A stretch of 64,000 nucleotides of DNA from contig NZ_BOMB01000001.1 in the NCBI RefSeq assembly GCF_016861975.1, forward strand, positions 124,001 to 188,000, written 5' to 3'. The stretch comes from Actinocatenispora rupis. Its GTDB lineage: Bacteria; Actinomycetota; Actinomycetes; Mycobacteriales; Micromonosporaceae. The position numbers and the translations under genes are program-made. The notes below the pieces were generated by a model. The model worked only from the letters and a program-made list of their open reading frames with translations, was not told the DNA's origin and searched no databases. Positions 2,132 to 8,102 of this stretch are shown one piece after another. Position 1 is the stretch's first letter. Each line of letters opens with the position of its first letter.

Positions 2132-2514
2132 TTCGTCGTGTCCGGGGCGGGTCGGGCGAGGGGCGACGGTCGTGACCGGCCGTCCGGGTGGACGGTGCAC
2201 GATCGCGTCGACGACCCGGCCGGCGAGTACGGGGTCGTGACCGGCGGCGCGGCTAGGGGGTAACCCCGAGCCCCGCCCGGGGACCGGTACGGGGGCGAAC
2301 CGGGGCCGCGTCCCCGATGTGCGGCATCCGCCGGGCCGGCAGGCTCAGCGTTATGCCAGTTGATCACCGAGAGCCACGGAGCGGCCGGCGCCAGGCCCGC
2401 GGTGGGGACAGCACCACCTCGGATCCGGGGGCGCACGGCAGTGTGTACGAGCCGTCGCGATGTGACCGTGAAGTGGGCGGCGGGACCGCCCCTGTCGGGA
2501 CATCGGAGGTCGGC
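2132..2514. other. Intergenic region before the DUF998 gene
   Basis: About 380 bp without a convincing gene. The reading frame of the downstream membrane protein stays open through it, with ATGs at 2317 and 2353, but neither has a good ribosome binding site and the encoded stretch is unlike the conserved protein. No clear promoter was identified. Confidence 0.4.
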
Positions 2515-3177
2515 GTGCGGTCGGTCAGGGGAGCGGCGGTGGTGTCGCTGTCGCTGCTGGCCGTCGCGGTGGCCGTCATCGGCTACCTGCATCTGACCAC
2601 CGGCATCAGCCCGGTCAGCGGCATGATCAGCGACTACGTGTTCACGCACGTCGGCGCGGTCCTGCTGCCGGTCGCGGTACTGGCGCTGGCGGGCGGGCTG
2701 ATGGTGTTGCGGCGCGGGTTGGCGGCCACGGGCGTGTCGTGCCGCGGTACCGGCTGGTTGCTCCTGACGGCGGCGCTCGGTGCGGCGCTGATCGCGTTCT
2801 TCCGGGCGGATCCGGCGGGCGCGGCGCCGACGGCCACCGGGCTGGTGCACAAGGCGGCGGGTGGGCTGCTGTTCGGGTCGATGCCGGTGGCGGGCTGGTT
2901 GCTCGCGCGCCGGTTCGCCGACCGGTACGGCTGGCGTCCGCTCGCCACCCGGGTACGCCGGCTGGCGGTGGTCGCGGGTGGTCTGTTCGCGCTGTTCCTG
3001 GTGACGTACCTGCCGCTGTTCGGGGTTCCGCTGCCCGGCGGTACGGCGCTGGTGGACGTGCAGGGGCTGGCCGAGCGGCTGGTCCTGCTGCCGGAACTGG
3101 CGCTGGTGGTCCTGGTCGCGGTGCGGCTGACGCGCCCGGTTCCGGTCTGGCGCACACCGACACGGGAGGTGGTCTGA
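2515..3177 (+). CDS. DUF998 family integral membrane protein
   Basis: 220-residue protein with about six hydrophobic segments, the length and pattern of the DUF998 family. The first segment begins at SLSLLAVAVAVIGYLHL, followed by the typical motif around GISPVSGMISDYV. The function of the family is unknown. The GTG at 2515 was chosen because GGAGG lies 5 nt upstream (2505-2509); upstream ATGs would add a charged, low-complexity N-terminus. The stop TGA at 3175-3177 directly abuts the GTG of the transporter/glycosyltransferase gene, so the two are very likely one transcriptional and translational unit, perhaps concerned with cell-envelope glycans or lipids. That role is inference from context only. 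Confidence 0.75.
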   Translation: MRSVRGAAVVSLSLLAVAVAVIGYLHLTTGISPVSGMISDYVFTHVGAVLLPVAVLALAGGLMVLRRGLAATGVSCRGTGWLLLTAALGAALIAFFRADPAGAAPTATGLVHKAAGGLLFGSMPVAGWLLARRFADRYGWRPLATRVRRLAVVAGGLFALFLVTYLPLFGVPLPGGTALVDVQGLAERLVLLPELALVVLVAVRLTRPVPVWRTPTREVV

Positions 3178-5325
3178 GTGACGGCGCTGGCGATCGGCCT
3201 GGCGGTACTCGGCGCGGTGGCGTACGCGCTGGCCGCGCAGCTGCAGCACGGCGCGGTACGGACCGCGTTGGACCGCGGGGCGCGGCCGGTGGCCCGGCTG
3301 CTCCGGCAGCGGCGCTGGTTGGCGGGACTGGCCCTGATCGGTACGGGCGCGGGGCTGCATGCCGCCGCGCTGGGGCTGGCCCCGCTGACCGTCGTACAGC
3401 CGGTCGGGGTGCTGGCGGTGGTGCTGGTGGCGGTGTTGCAGGCCCGGTCGCACCGGTCGGGTCTGGGGCGCCGCACCGTACTGGCGATCGCGGCGACGAC
3501 GCTGTCGGTCGGCGGGTTCGTGGCGGTGGCGGCGGGCGACGCGCGGTCGACGCTGATCTCGGACGCGGCGCAGGGCCGTACGGCGGTGTTGGCGGCGGCG
3601 GCCGTCGCCGTACTCGGGGCCGCGGCGCTGCTGTGGCGTGGCCGGCCGCGGTGCCTGCTGCTGGCCACGGCCGGCGGCGTGGCGTACGGCTTCGTGTCGG
3701 TGTCGACGCGGGTCGTGGTGCAGCGGCTGACGACGGGCGGGCTCGGCGCGGTGCCGCTCGCGACCGTACTCGGCATCGGGGTGGCGTTGGCGGTCGGCGG
3801 CACCGCCATCCAGCTCGCGTACGCCAGCGGCCCGCCGACGGTGGTGGTCGCCTGCTTGACGATGGCCGATCCGTTCTTCGCGGTCGCGGTGGGCGCGCTG
3901 CTGCTGGGCGAGGGCGCGACGACGCCGCTGCCGGTGGCCGCCGGCCAGCTCGGTCTCGCCGGTGTCGCGGCGGCCGGGGTGGCGCTGCTGGCCAGGTTCC
4001 ATCCGGACGCGACGACCCGGCGGGGTGGGCCGGGCCGCGGTCGGACGCACGACGAGCACGACGTACTGACGCATCCGGCGGCCGCGGGGGTCGCCTCGAC
4101 GGAGGAGAACACGGTGAAGGTTTCGGACAGGCTCGGCGACGGTCGGCTGCGGATCGTGGTGGGCGCGGACACGTTCCCGCCGGACGTCAACGGCGCGGCA
4201 CGCTTCTCGTACCGGCTGGCGACGGGGCTGGCGGCCCGGGGCCACGACGTGCACGTGCTCGCCCCGTCCCCGGACGGCGCGCCCGGAGTGTCCATGATGG
4301 ACGGTGTCACGGTGCACCGGGTACGTGCCCGGCGCACGCCGTTCCACCCGACGTTCCGGTTCTGCACGCCGTGGCAGGCCGCGCGCGCCGCCGACGACCT
4401 GCTCACCGAGCTGGCGCCGGACCTGGTGCACATCCAGTCGCACTTCCTCGTCGGCCGGGCGCTGTCCAAGGCGGCCGTCGCGCACGACATCCCGCTGGTG
4501 GCCACCAACCACTTCATGCCCGAGAACCTCTTCGGGTACGTCCGGCTCCCCGGGCCGCTGCACCGCGCCGCGCGGGACGCCGCCTGGCGCGACGCGGCCC
4601 GCGTGTTCGGCCGGGCGAAGGCGGTCACCGCGCCGACCCAGCGTGCGGTGGATCTGTTGCAGGCCAACGGAATCGAGCACGGTGAGGCGGTGTCGTGCGG
4701 GATCGACCTGGAGCGCTTCGGCGCGCGGCGCGCACCGGACGCGCACGTACCGACGGTGCTGTTCGTGGGTCGGCTGGACGCGGAGAAGCGGGTCGACGAA
4801 CTGATCCGCGCGGCGTCGATGCTGCCGCCGTCGCTGCCGTTCCGGATCGAACTGATCGGCACCGGCTCCCGACGCGCCGAGTGGGAGCGGCTGGCCGCGT
4901 CCGTCGGGGTCACCGAGCGGATCACGTTCCGCGGCTTCGTACCGGACGAGGACCTGCCCGCCGCGTACGAGGGGTGCGACGTGTTCTGCATCCCCGGCGT
5001 CGCCGAACTCCAGAGCCTGGTGACGATGGAGGCGATGGCCGCCGGCCGCCCCGTCGTCGCCGCCGACGCGATGGCGCTGCCGCACCTGGTCCACCACGGC
5101 GAGAACGGCTGGCTGTACACCCCGGGCGACGTGCCCGGCCTCGCCGACCGCCTCGCCGCCCTGCTCACCGACCCCGACCTGCGCGTACGCATGGGCGAGG
5201 CGGGTCGGCGGCGGATCGCCGAGCACGGCGTCACGACCACGCTCCGCCGGTACGAGGAGATCTACGGCGAGGTACTGGGTGTGCCGGTGGCGGGCGCCGA
5301 GCCGGTCCTGGCCGCGGCGGCCTGA
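3178..5325 (+). CDS. DMT/EamA-like transporter fused to a family 4 glycosyltransferase
   Basis: One 715-residue open frame with two separable halves. Residues 1 to about 285 form around nine hydrophobic helices resembling small-multidrug/EamA-type transporters. Residues about 320-715 are a GT-B glycosyltransferase of the group 1/GT4 kind, with the N-terminal PPDVNGAARF motif, the FVGRLDAEKRVDELI start of the donor domain, and the E-x7-E type signature in ELQSLVTMEAMAAGRPV. The GTG start at 3178 follows GGGAGGT (3164-3170). An in-frame GTG at 4114 has its own GGAGGAG at 4101-4107, exactly where a free-standing glycosyltransferase would begin. The gene may therefore make both the fusion and a soluble transferase. 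The acceptor is unknown; a cell-surface lipid or glycan is plausible. Confidence 0.8.
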   Translation: MTALAIGLAVLGAVAYALAAQLQHGAVRTALDRGARPVARLLRQRRWLAGLALIGTGAGLHAAALGLAPLTVVQPVGVLAVVLVAVLQARSHRSGLGRRTVLAIAATTLSVGGFVAVAAGDARSTLISDAAQGRTAVLAAAAVAVLGAAALLWRGRPRCLLLATAGGVAYGFVSVSTRVVVQRLTTGGLGAVPLATVLGIGVALAVGGTAIQLAYASGPPTVVVACLTMADPFFAVAVGALLLGEGATTPLPVAAGQLGLAGVAAAGVALLARFHPDATTRRGGPGRGRTHDEHDVLTHPAAAGVASTEENTVKVSDRLGDGRLRIVVGADTFPPDVNGAARFSYRLATGLAARGHDVHVLAPSPDGAPGVSMMDGVTVHRVRARRTPFHPTFRFCTPWQAARAADDLLTELAPDLVHIQSHFLVGRALSKAAVAHDIPLVATNHFMPENLFGYVRLPGPLHRAARDAAWRDAARVFGRAKAVTAPTQRAVDLLQANGIEHGEAVSCGIDLERFGARRAPDAHVPTVLFVGRLDAEKRVDELIRAASMLPPSLPFRIELIGTGSRRAEWERLAASVGVTERITFRGFVPDEDLPAAYEGCDVFCIPGVAELQSLVTMEAMAAGRPVVAADAMALPHLVHHGENGWLYTPGDVPGLADRLAALLTDPDLRVRMGEAGRRRIAEHGVTTTLRRYEEIYGEVLGVPVAGAEPVLAAAA

Positions 5326-6331: not shown

Positions 6332-7041
6332 CGGGTCACCGCCAGTTTCCGCTCGGCCAGGTTGAACGCCGCGGACACCAGCAGCGTCAGCACGATGTAC
6401 CCGAGCGCCACCGCGATGAACTCGGCGTACAGGTGCTCGGGGTGGTCGCGGACCGAGTCGTCGAAGAACTTGGTCAGCTCACCCACGTTGAAGAACTCCG
6501 CGATCGCCGAGTTCTTGATCATCGCGATGTACATGCTGGCCAGCGGCGGCAGCACGGTACGCAGCGCCTGCGGCAGTACGACGAGCCGCAGGGTCTGGCC
6601 GAACGTCATGCCGACCGCCCGCGCCGCCTCCGCCTGCCCCACCGGTACGGAGTTGAAGCCGGACCGGATCGCGTCGGCGACGAAGCACGACGTGTACGTC
6701 GACAGCGCGATGACCGCGAAGATGAAGAACGTGTCGAGCCCGATCGCGTCGGCCCAGGCGAACCGGATGCCGACGATCGGCAGGACCACGGAGGTACCGA
6801 GAAAGACCAGGGTGAGCGGGGTGTTGCGGAAGAACCCCGACCAGGCTGTGCCGGCGATCCGCAGCGCGGGGATCGGGGACACCCGCATCGCGGCCACGAT
6901 CAGCCCGAGAATGGTCGACAGGATGCCCGCGATCAGCGACAGCTTGACGGTACCGAGCAGGCCGTCGAGGAACGCGTTGTGTTCCTGCCACAGGTACTGC
7001 ACGCCGCCAACCGCGAGGTTGCCGGATTCGGCGAGAGCCAC
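6328..7041 (-). CDS. gluC: Glutamate/amino-acid ABC transporter permease GluC
   Basis: 237-residue permease of the His/Glu/Gln uptake type. Hydrophobic helices begin at TVKLSLIAGILSTILGLIVAA, and the EAA loop is GQAEAARAVGMTFGQTLRLVVLPQALR. The GTG at 7041 was chosen because a perfect GGAGGAG is centred about 6 nt upstream (7044-7050); the longer frame from 7125 lacks a ribosome binding site and adds a Cys/Pro/Arg-rich segment. It lies third in the operon after a 143-nt gap that contains a strong hairpin, which could reduce its expression relative to gluB. Confidence 0.92.
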   Translation of the reverse strand: MALAESGNLAVGGVQYLWQEHNAFLDGLLGTVKLSLIAGILSTILGLIVAAMRVSPIPALRIAGTAWSGFFRNTPLTLVFLGTSVVLPIVGIRFAWADAIGLDTFFIFAVIALSTYTSCFVADAIRSGFNSVPVGQAEAARAVGMTFGQTLRLVVLPQALRTVLPPLASMYIAMIKNSAIAEFFNVGELTKFFDDSVRDHPEHLYAEFIAVALGYIVLTLLVSAAFNLAERKLAVTR

Positions 7042-7142
7042 GTCTCCTCCACATGACGCCGGACCGCGGATCGGTGCTGCGTTCCGCGCCGGCCGGGGAC
7101 CCGGATGGGGACAGCGGCGGCACACGCCGCCGGATGGGACGC

Positions 7143-7175
7143 GGGTGCCGGCCCGACGGGGTCAGGCCGGCACCC
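7143..7175 (-). terminator. Intercistronic hairpin between gluB and gluC
   Basis: An 11-bp perfect stem (GGGTGCCGGCC / GGCCGGCACCC) with an 11-nt loop starts 10 nt after the gluB stop codon. In binding-protein-dependent transport operons such hairpins stabilise the upstream message or terminate part of the transcripts, so that binding protein outnumbers permease. That is the likely role here. Confidence 0.65.
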
Positions 7176-7184
7176 GGCCGGTTC

Positions 7185-8102
7185 TTAGTAGCGGTCCAGG
7201 GTGGGCGGGTTCGGCGCGTCCGACCCGGACTTGCCGAGGGTCAGGTCGTACGCCTTCTTCCAGTGCCCGTCCTTGAACGCGGCGTCCAGCTTGTCGTTGA
7301 CGAAGCCGCGCAGGTCGTTGCGGTCCTTGGCCATGCCGATGCCGTACTTCTCGGTGGAGAACGGCTTGCCGACCACCATCAGGTGCTCCGGGTCGGAGGC
7401 GGCGTAGCCCAGCAGGATCGCGCCGTCGGTGGTGAGCACGTCGACCGTGGAGTTCTGCAGCTGGGTCACGCAGTCGGAGTACTGCGCGAGCGCGACCGGC
7501 TTGGCCTTCGGGTAGTTCTTCTCGATGTTGGCCAGCGGGGTCGAGCCGGTGACCGAACAGACCTTCTTGCCGGCCAGGTCCTGCGGGCTCTTGATCTTGT
7601 CCTTGTCCGCCTTGCGGATCAGCAGGTCCTGACCGGTCTCGTAGTACGGCCCGGCGAAGCCGACGAGCTGCTTGCGCTCCGGCGTGATCGAGTACGACGC
7701 GATGACCAGGTCGACGGTGCCGTTCTCCAGGAACGTCTCCCGGTTCTTCGACACGGTCTCGACGAACTCGACCTGCTTCTGGTTGTTGTAGTCGAGCCCG
7801 AGCTGACCGGCCACGTACTTGCCGACCTCGACGTCGAAGCCCTCGATCTTGCCGCTGGTCGGGTTCTTGTACCCGATGCCCGGCTGGTCGAACTTGACGC
7901 CGATCTTGATGTGCTTGGCCTTGTACAGCTTCTCCATCGTCGAGCCCGCGGCGAACTTCGGGTTCTTGACGATGGTGTACGCGCCGGCGTTCTTCGCGTC
8001 GTCCTTGGCCTTCTCGTCCAGCTTGCTCTTGCCGCAGGCGGCGGACCCGCCCAGGGCGAGCGCGCCGATGGCGGCGACCGCGAGGAGTCGCTTGAGCTTC
8101 AT
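7185..8102 (-). CDS. gluB: Glutamate-binding lipoprotein GluB
   Basis: 305-residue solute-binding protein of family 3. The signal peptide MKLKRLLAVAAIGALALGG leads to SAAC, with Cys23 as the probable lipidated residue. The mature protein has the SBP family 3 pattern, including the conserved region around GKIEGFDVEVGKYVAGQLGL. The ATG at 8102 was chosen because it opens the signal peptide; the longer frame adds an arginine-rich stretch. The gene ends with TAA, rare in this genome. It follows gluA after 95 nt. The substrate is predicted as glutamate or a related polar amino acid from operon order; the sequence does not fix specificity. Confidence 0.92.
   Translation of the reverse strand: MKLKRLLAVAAIGALALGGSAACGKSKLDEKAKDDAKNAGAYTIVKNPKFAAGSTMEKLYKAKHIKIGVKFDQPGIGYKNPTSGKIEGFDVEVGKYVAGQLGLDYNNQKQVEFVETVSKNRETFLENGTVDLVIASYSITPERKQLVGFAGPYYETGQDLLIRKADKDKIKSPQDLAGKKVCSVTGSTPLANIEKNYPKAKPVALAQYSDCVTQLQNSTVDVLTTDGAILLGYAASDPEHLMVVGKPFSTEKYGIGMAKDRNDLRGFVNDKLDAAFKDGHWKKAYDLTLGKSGSDAPNPPTLDRY

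Follow-up and report, generated by a model that had tools for sequence, protein, structure and literature searches.

Does a single reading frame that joins a membrane domain to a glycosyltransferase (GT) encode one protein or two? The question is raised by a gene of Actinocatenispora rupis in the window, that is, the whole 64,000-nucleotide stretch of DNA that was analysed. In this gene, a ribosome-binding sequence and an in-frame start codon lie at the junction of the two halves. From sequence comparisons, we interpret it as the fused form of an old gene pair, NIPA-like DMT and GT4, placed behind a DUF998 gene. The start at 3178 would give a membrane-tethered transferase and the start at 4114 a free one, and both products are probably made and used.

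Structure of the fused gene

The fused gene occupies positions 3178 to 5325 of the forward strand as a single open frame from GTG to TGA (715 codons, 715 amino acids). The sole stop in this frame is at 5323, which confirms the uninterrupted frame joining a membrane domain to a GT4 enzyme that a preliminary description had reported. We scored the 58 in-frame ATG, GTG, and TTG codons against the 16S anti-Shine-Dalgarno sequence. The best duplex belonged to the start at 3178 (-11.6 kcal/mol), served by GGGAGGT at 3164 to 3170 (forward strand), followed by the codon at 4114 (-9.5 kcal/mol); the third reached -7.9 kcal/mol.

Residues 1-276 (3178 to 4005, forward strand) form the membrane domain. 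As the preliminary description had proposed, the AlphaFold2 model (pLDDT 93.1, pTM 0.90) contains nine membrane helices, at residues 2-32, 45-67, 70-92, 98-120, 129-151, 156-185, 194-217, 220-241, and 251-273. The earlier label of EamA-like was only approximate. Pfam EamA (PF00892) gave no match for the window protein and weak matches in two of 38 relatives, against 30 of the 38 matched by Mg_trans_NIPA (PF05653) at E<=0.01. The window protein itself scored 24.3-24.9 bits with PF05653, just under the cut-off of 26.2, and a profile built from the 38 relatives matched the solved NIPA2 with E=2e-12. Judged by these profiles, the membrane domain appears nearest to NIPA and not to EamA proper. In structure comparisons, its N-terminal half superposed on the SMR protein Gdx-Clo (103 residues, 1.9 A, Z 11.4), and further matches were SLC35B1 (Z 8.9) and 5i20 (Z 8.3). 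Foldseek with the membrane domain returned no match under E 0.001; NIPA2 was absent among the 50 VIA-align matches listed, which excludes nothing. The domain resembles NIPA-type DMT transporters in its profile match to NIPA2 and its nine helices, but differs from them in being fused to a glycosyltransferase, and magnesium transport is not implied.

The C-terminal half, residues 324-700 (4147 to 5277, forward strand), adopts the GT-B fold in the AlphaFold2 model. Pfam confirmed its earlier description as a GT4 glycosyltransferase, with Glyco_transf_4 at 100.2 bits and Glycos_transf_1 at 120.1 bits, both above cut-off, and Foldseek found it to resemble structures of MshA, BshA, and PimA. The predicted active site includes an E-x7-E motif (E610 and E618; 5005 to 5031, forward strand), which we take to be the active-site motif of GT4 enzymes. 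Both glutamates, as well as R532 and K537, are invariant in 28 fused proteins. The GT-B fold, the E-x7-E motif, and the two Pfam domains are shared with PimA, PimB', MshA, BshA, and the bacterial glucosyl-DAG synthases. The difference is that the present GT sits on a membrane domain and that none of the NCBIfam equivalogs listed attained its cut-off, the best being MshA TIGR03449 with 99.2 of 462.5 bits. Additionally, the genome that contains the window has a GT paralogue (L005, G000:C15:37799-39046) whose match includes an in-frame TAG.

Between the two domains lies a disordered linker (residues 278-316, 4009 to 4125, forward strand; AlphaFold2 pLDDT < 50). Within the window's genus (L010/L011), its dN of about 0.31 equals its dS of 0.31, whereas the DMT domain shows dN/dS values of 0.02/0.18 and the GT 0.02/0.13. 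By this comparison, the linker evolves almost neutrally in the genus, as would be expected of an unconstrained tether that holds together two domains under constraint. On its own, the absence of stops from the linker is weak evidence because shuffled linkers stay stop-free 47-73% of the time and the offset +2 frame of the linker is likewise stop-free. The Actinosynnema pretiosum gene (L097, about 6750-7280) has a very long linker rich in Ala, Pro, Arg, and Ser, with repeat-like units between the domains.

Fused and split forms among actinobacteria

Relatives were collected by a scan of named genomes, from which 80 loci were kept, and from 150 genomes of the family, 394 of the class, and 297 of a second family. 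The two genes were found side by side across actinobacteria. After removal of repeated GT stretches and of GT matches that scored below 250 bits, the set comprised 206 distinct GT loci: 97 fused, 94 split, and 15 with no DMT match upstream. These are loci retrieved by homology, comprising part of the matches listed in the genome searches, and the numbers do not measure prevalence. The split versions that the preliminary description had suggested looking for are therefore plentiful; 51 of them have both genes in the same frame with stops between, and 43 have them in different frames.

In all four genomes of the window's genus, both halves share one frame at the junction. No stop codon between the halves, such as the preliminary description had envisaged from resequencing, was found in any of them, and this rules out a sequencing error or a lost stop in one assembly. 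A recent fusion limited to the genus was likewise ruled out, as fused genes occur in many other genera. The earlier suggestion of a recent fusion by stop-codon loss thus stood in part. Split pairs of neighbouring genes do occur, and in some of them a shared frame is interrupted by one or two stops a few codons ahead of the GT start; recency fails because the fusion is common to all four genus genomes and to many other genera.

Trees of the GT, of a quick kind with many weak forks, require four to six changes between the fused and split states, at least three of them forced by well-supported branches. One tree omitted near-copies and the GT paralogues of the window's own genome (L003-L008), and another kept every fourth of the 43 most distant split rows. 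On this comparative evidence, the two genes have long been paired in actinobacteria and have many split relatives; the fusion, too, is of long standing and has been gained or lost on several occasions.

In genus g217 (L237-L242), the two genes lie in a common frame and are kept apart by one or two stop codons immediately ahead of the GT start, as though fusion were only a change or two away. In the split pair L146, the DMT frame extends about 300 bases beyond the GT start, in another frame. A plasmid search returned only matches to the GT half, in four records.

Directly upstream, a DUF998 membrane protein gene (2317 to 3177, forward strand; Pfam DUF998 E=1.8e-16) ends with a TGA at 3175-3177 that abuts the GTG at 3178. 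Among L041-L120, the gene immediately preceding is a DUF998 gene at 35 of 39 fused loci, compared with 4 of 41 split loci. Among 41 DUF998 matches, the four bases ending in the DUF998 stop are ATGA in 30 and GTGA in 6, so that the stop and the next start may overlap. DUF998, the NIPA-like DMT, and the GT4 enzyme would thus constitute an uncharacterised three-part membrane operon of many actinobacteria. In the literature searched, which included few subscription journals, we found no description of this fusion, nor of an operon of DUF998 with such a glycosyltransferase. The other neighbours in the window, presumably an RNase Y-like gene, glutamate-type ABC transporter genes, and a miaB-like gene (the names are partly our own assignment), are common to the genus and hardly extend beyond it.

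A candidate internal start at the junction

The internal Shine-Dalgarno sequence, GGAGGAG at 4101 to 4107 (forward strand), lies 6 nt before a GTG at 4114 to 4116, codon 313 of the fused frame; the positions and the frame are as first described. A free GT product from 4114 to 5325 would have 403 amino acids. Apart from the codon at 4114, no in-frame start codon falls 12-28 codons ahead of the conserved DVNG motif, and each of the four genus genomes has an equivalent Shine-Dalgarno sequence and in-frame GTG.

For the comparison among relatives, an internal site was defined as an in-frame ATG, GTG, or TTG located 12-28 codons before DVNG with a Shine-Dalgarno energy <= -5.5 kcal/mol; the energy cut-off and the codon window were set after a first scan, which left out L056 and L073 for want of an anchor. 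The test resulted in 78 of the 97 fused genes with an internal site, 64 with GTG and 14 with ATG, and in 53 of these 78 the start lies 18 codons before the motif. Among representatives under 90% identity, 31 of 49 fused genes had the site, whereas same-size windows in the same GT bodies qualified in 166 of 1073 cases (15%) and resampling of synonymous codons expected 16.0 +/- 2.6 of 49, although the rows are related, the counts are not independent, and kinship inflates the significance of the enrichment. Because the observed number exceeds that from resampling, amino-acid constraint alone does not account for the site. Only 46 of the 94 ordinary split genes passed the same test, so the definition misses many true starts.

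The distribution of the site differs among clades. All 26 rows of one clade, which comprises Lentzea, Saccharothrix, Actinosynnema, and their kin, are fused, and 25 have kept the start. The 19 fused genes with no site include a clade of 13 tree rows from Glycomyces, Prauserella, some Amycolatopsis, and one Rhodococcus rhodnii copy, in which the linker is tight and all genes are fused. This clade has lost the internal site and can make only the fusion, which therefore suffices there. Rhodococcus rhodnii NRRL B-16535 carries two fused copies from different clades (L065 and L069), one without and one with an internal start.

The window gene therefore has what defines an in-frame internal start, namely a Shine-Dalgarno sequence and an in-frame start codon conserved in relatives. 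The earlier suggestion that the gene may yield a fusion tethered to the membrane as well as a free transferase gains comparative support, since most fused relatives keep the site and the frame is kept.

One product or two

It is unlikely that only the fusion matters, with the internal Shine-Dalgarno sequence and GTG left as a relic from the time when the GT gene stood alone and giving rise to little protein. Fusion by loss of a stop codon would at first leave just such a relic, and the clade of 13 rows lost the site while remaining fused. However, the site persists in most fused genes across many genera and above the synonymous expectation, while the neighbouring linker bases are poorly conserved; the latter profile was drawn from genes preselected for the site and illustrates the contrast but does not test it.

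We give still less credence to the converse, that the functional enzyme is the free GT started at 4114 and the fusion a tolerated read-through after the DMT gene lost its stop. The near-neutral linker within the genus agrees with it, as does one genus member (G050; L009, about 600-760) with a frameshift near DMT codon 50 and an intact GT half and internal start. This frameshift may be an assembly error or a real loss; if real, it would leave only the free GT. Were the fusion of no use and the GT equipped with a start of its own, nothing would prevent stops and frame-breaking indels from accumulating ahead of that start. Instead, across 76 fused genes that carry the internal site, a minimum of 29 length changes ahead of it left the frame intact, whereas that tree needs 4 switches between fused and split (4-6 over the trees). 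The length counts omit L232 and L253 for lack of a landmark, and some of the changes may fall in the last helix, which is constrained in any case. A clade with only the fusion also exists, and in another clade 26 of 26 rows are fused; both speak against mere read-through.

Finally, it is very improbable that GGAG and GTG meet at the junction by chance from high GC and Glu-rich linkers, for although GGAG-like matches are common in GC-rich coding DNA and 12% of 2940 in-frame starts taken from GT bodies pass the energy threshold, the site occurs in 63-80% of fused genes against 14-16% of control windows, and in 31 against 16 expected from synonymous resampling.

We infer from the conserved site and the conserved frame that selection has acted on both the tethered and the free transferase.

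Proposed function and significance

Under the preferred two-product reading, ribosomes initiating at 3178 would have to read through the junction and give the 715-residue membrane-tethered transferase, while ribosomes loading at GGAGGAG and the GTG at 4114 would give the free 403-residue enzyme. With nine helices and an Arg-rich linker on the inside, the GT is expected to be cytoplasmic. More tentatively, it may attach sugar to a membrane lipid on the cytoplasmic side, and the DMT domain may translocate, handle, or regulate the glycosylated lipid, as in synthase-flippase proteins such as MprF. The glycolipid role is suggested, more weakly than the two products, by family resemblance, and a coupling of flippase and transferase is conceivable; co-expression without channelling fits the data equally well. 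It is possible, but on balance doubtful, that the two starts of a flippase-synthase gene set how much of the lipid glycosyltransferase is membrane-tethered and how much is free, both products being maintained by selection.

MprF is a lipid-modifying synthase fused to its own flippase. The likeness lies in a single chain that combines a translocase-like membrane domain with an enzyme of the lipid-modifying kind; the domains are unrelated to those described here, and the window protein has no Pfam match to the MprF flippase or synthase.

In-frame internal starts are already known in bacteria, as in cheA and infB, and what is new here is that most fused genes keep the internal site. Western blotting in M. 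smegmatis has verified two isoform ORFs of M. tuberculosis (PMC9094748). These genes and the present one are alike in having two products and one stop codon, the second product being predicted here. They differ in that the present start looks inherited from a formerly separate gene and has been kept across many genera.

Gene fusions are usually read as single-product genes. Here, many fused lineages have retained the internal start and one clade has lost it. The contrast is a natural experiment on what an enzyme gains from attachment to a transporter, and on the reasons for retaining a free copy. Annotation of such a gene as one protein would miss a product. If the proposed reading is true, actinobacteria show the full series from split pair through dual-product gene to fusion-only gene, and the advantage of tethering would be directly testable.
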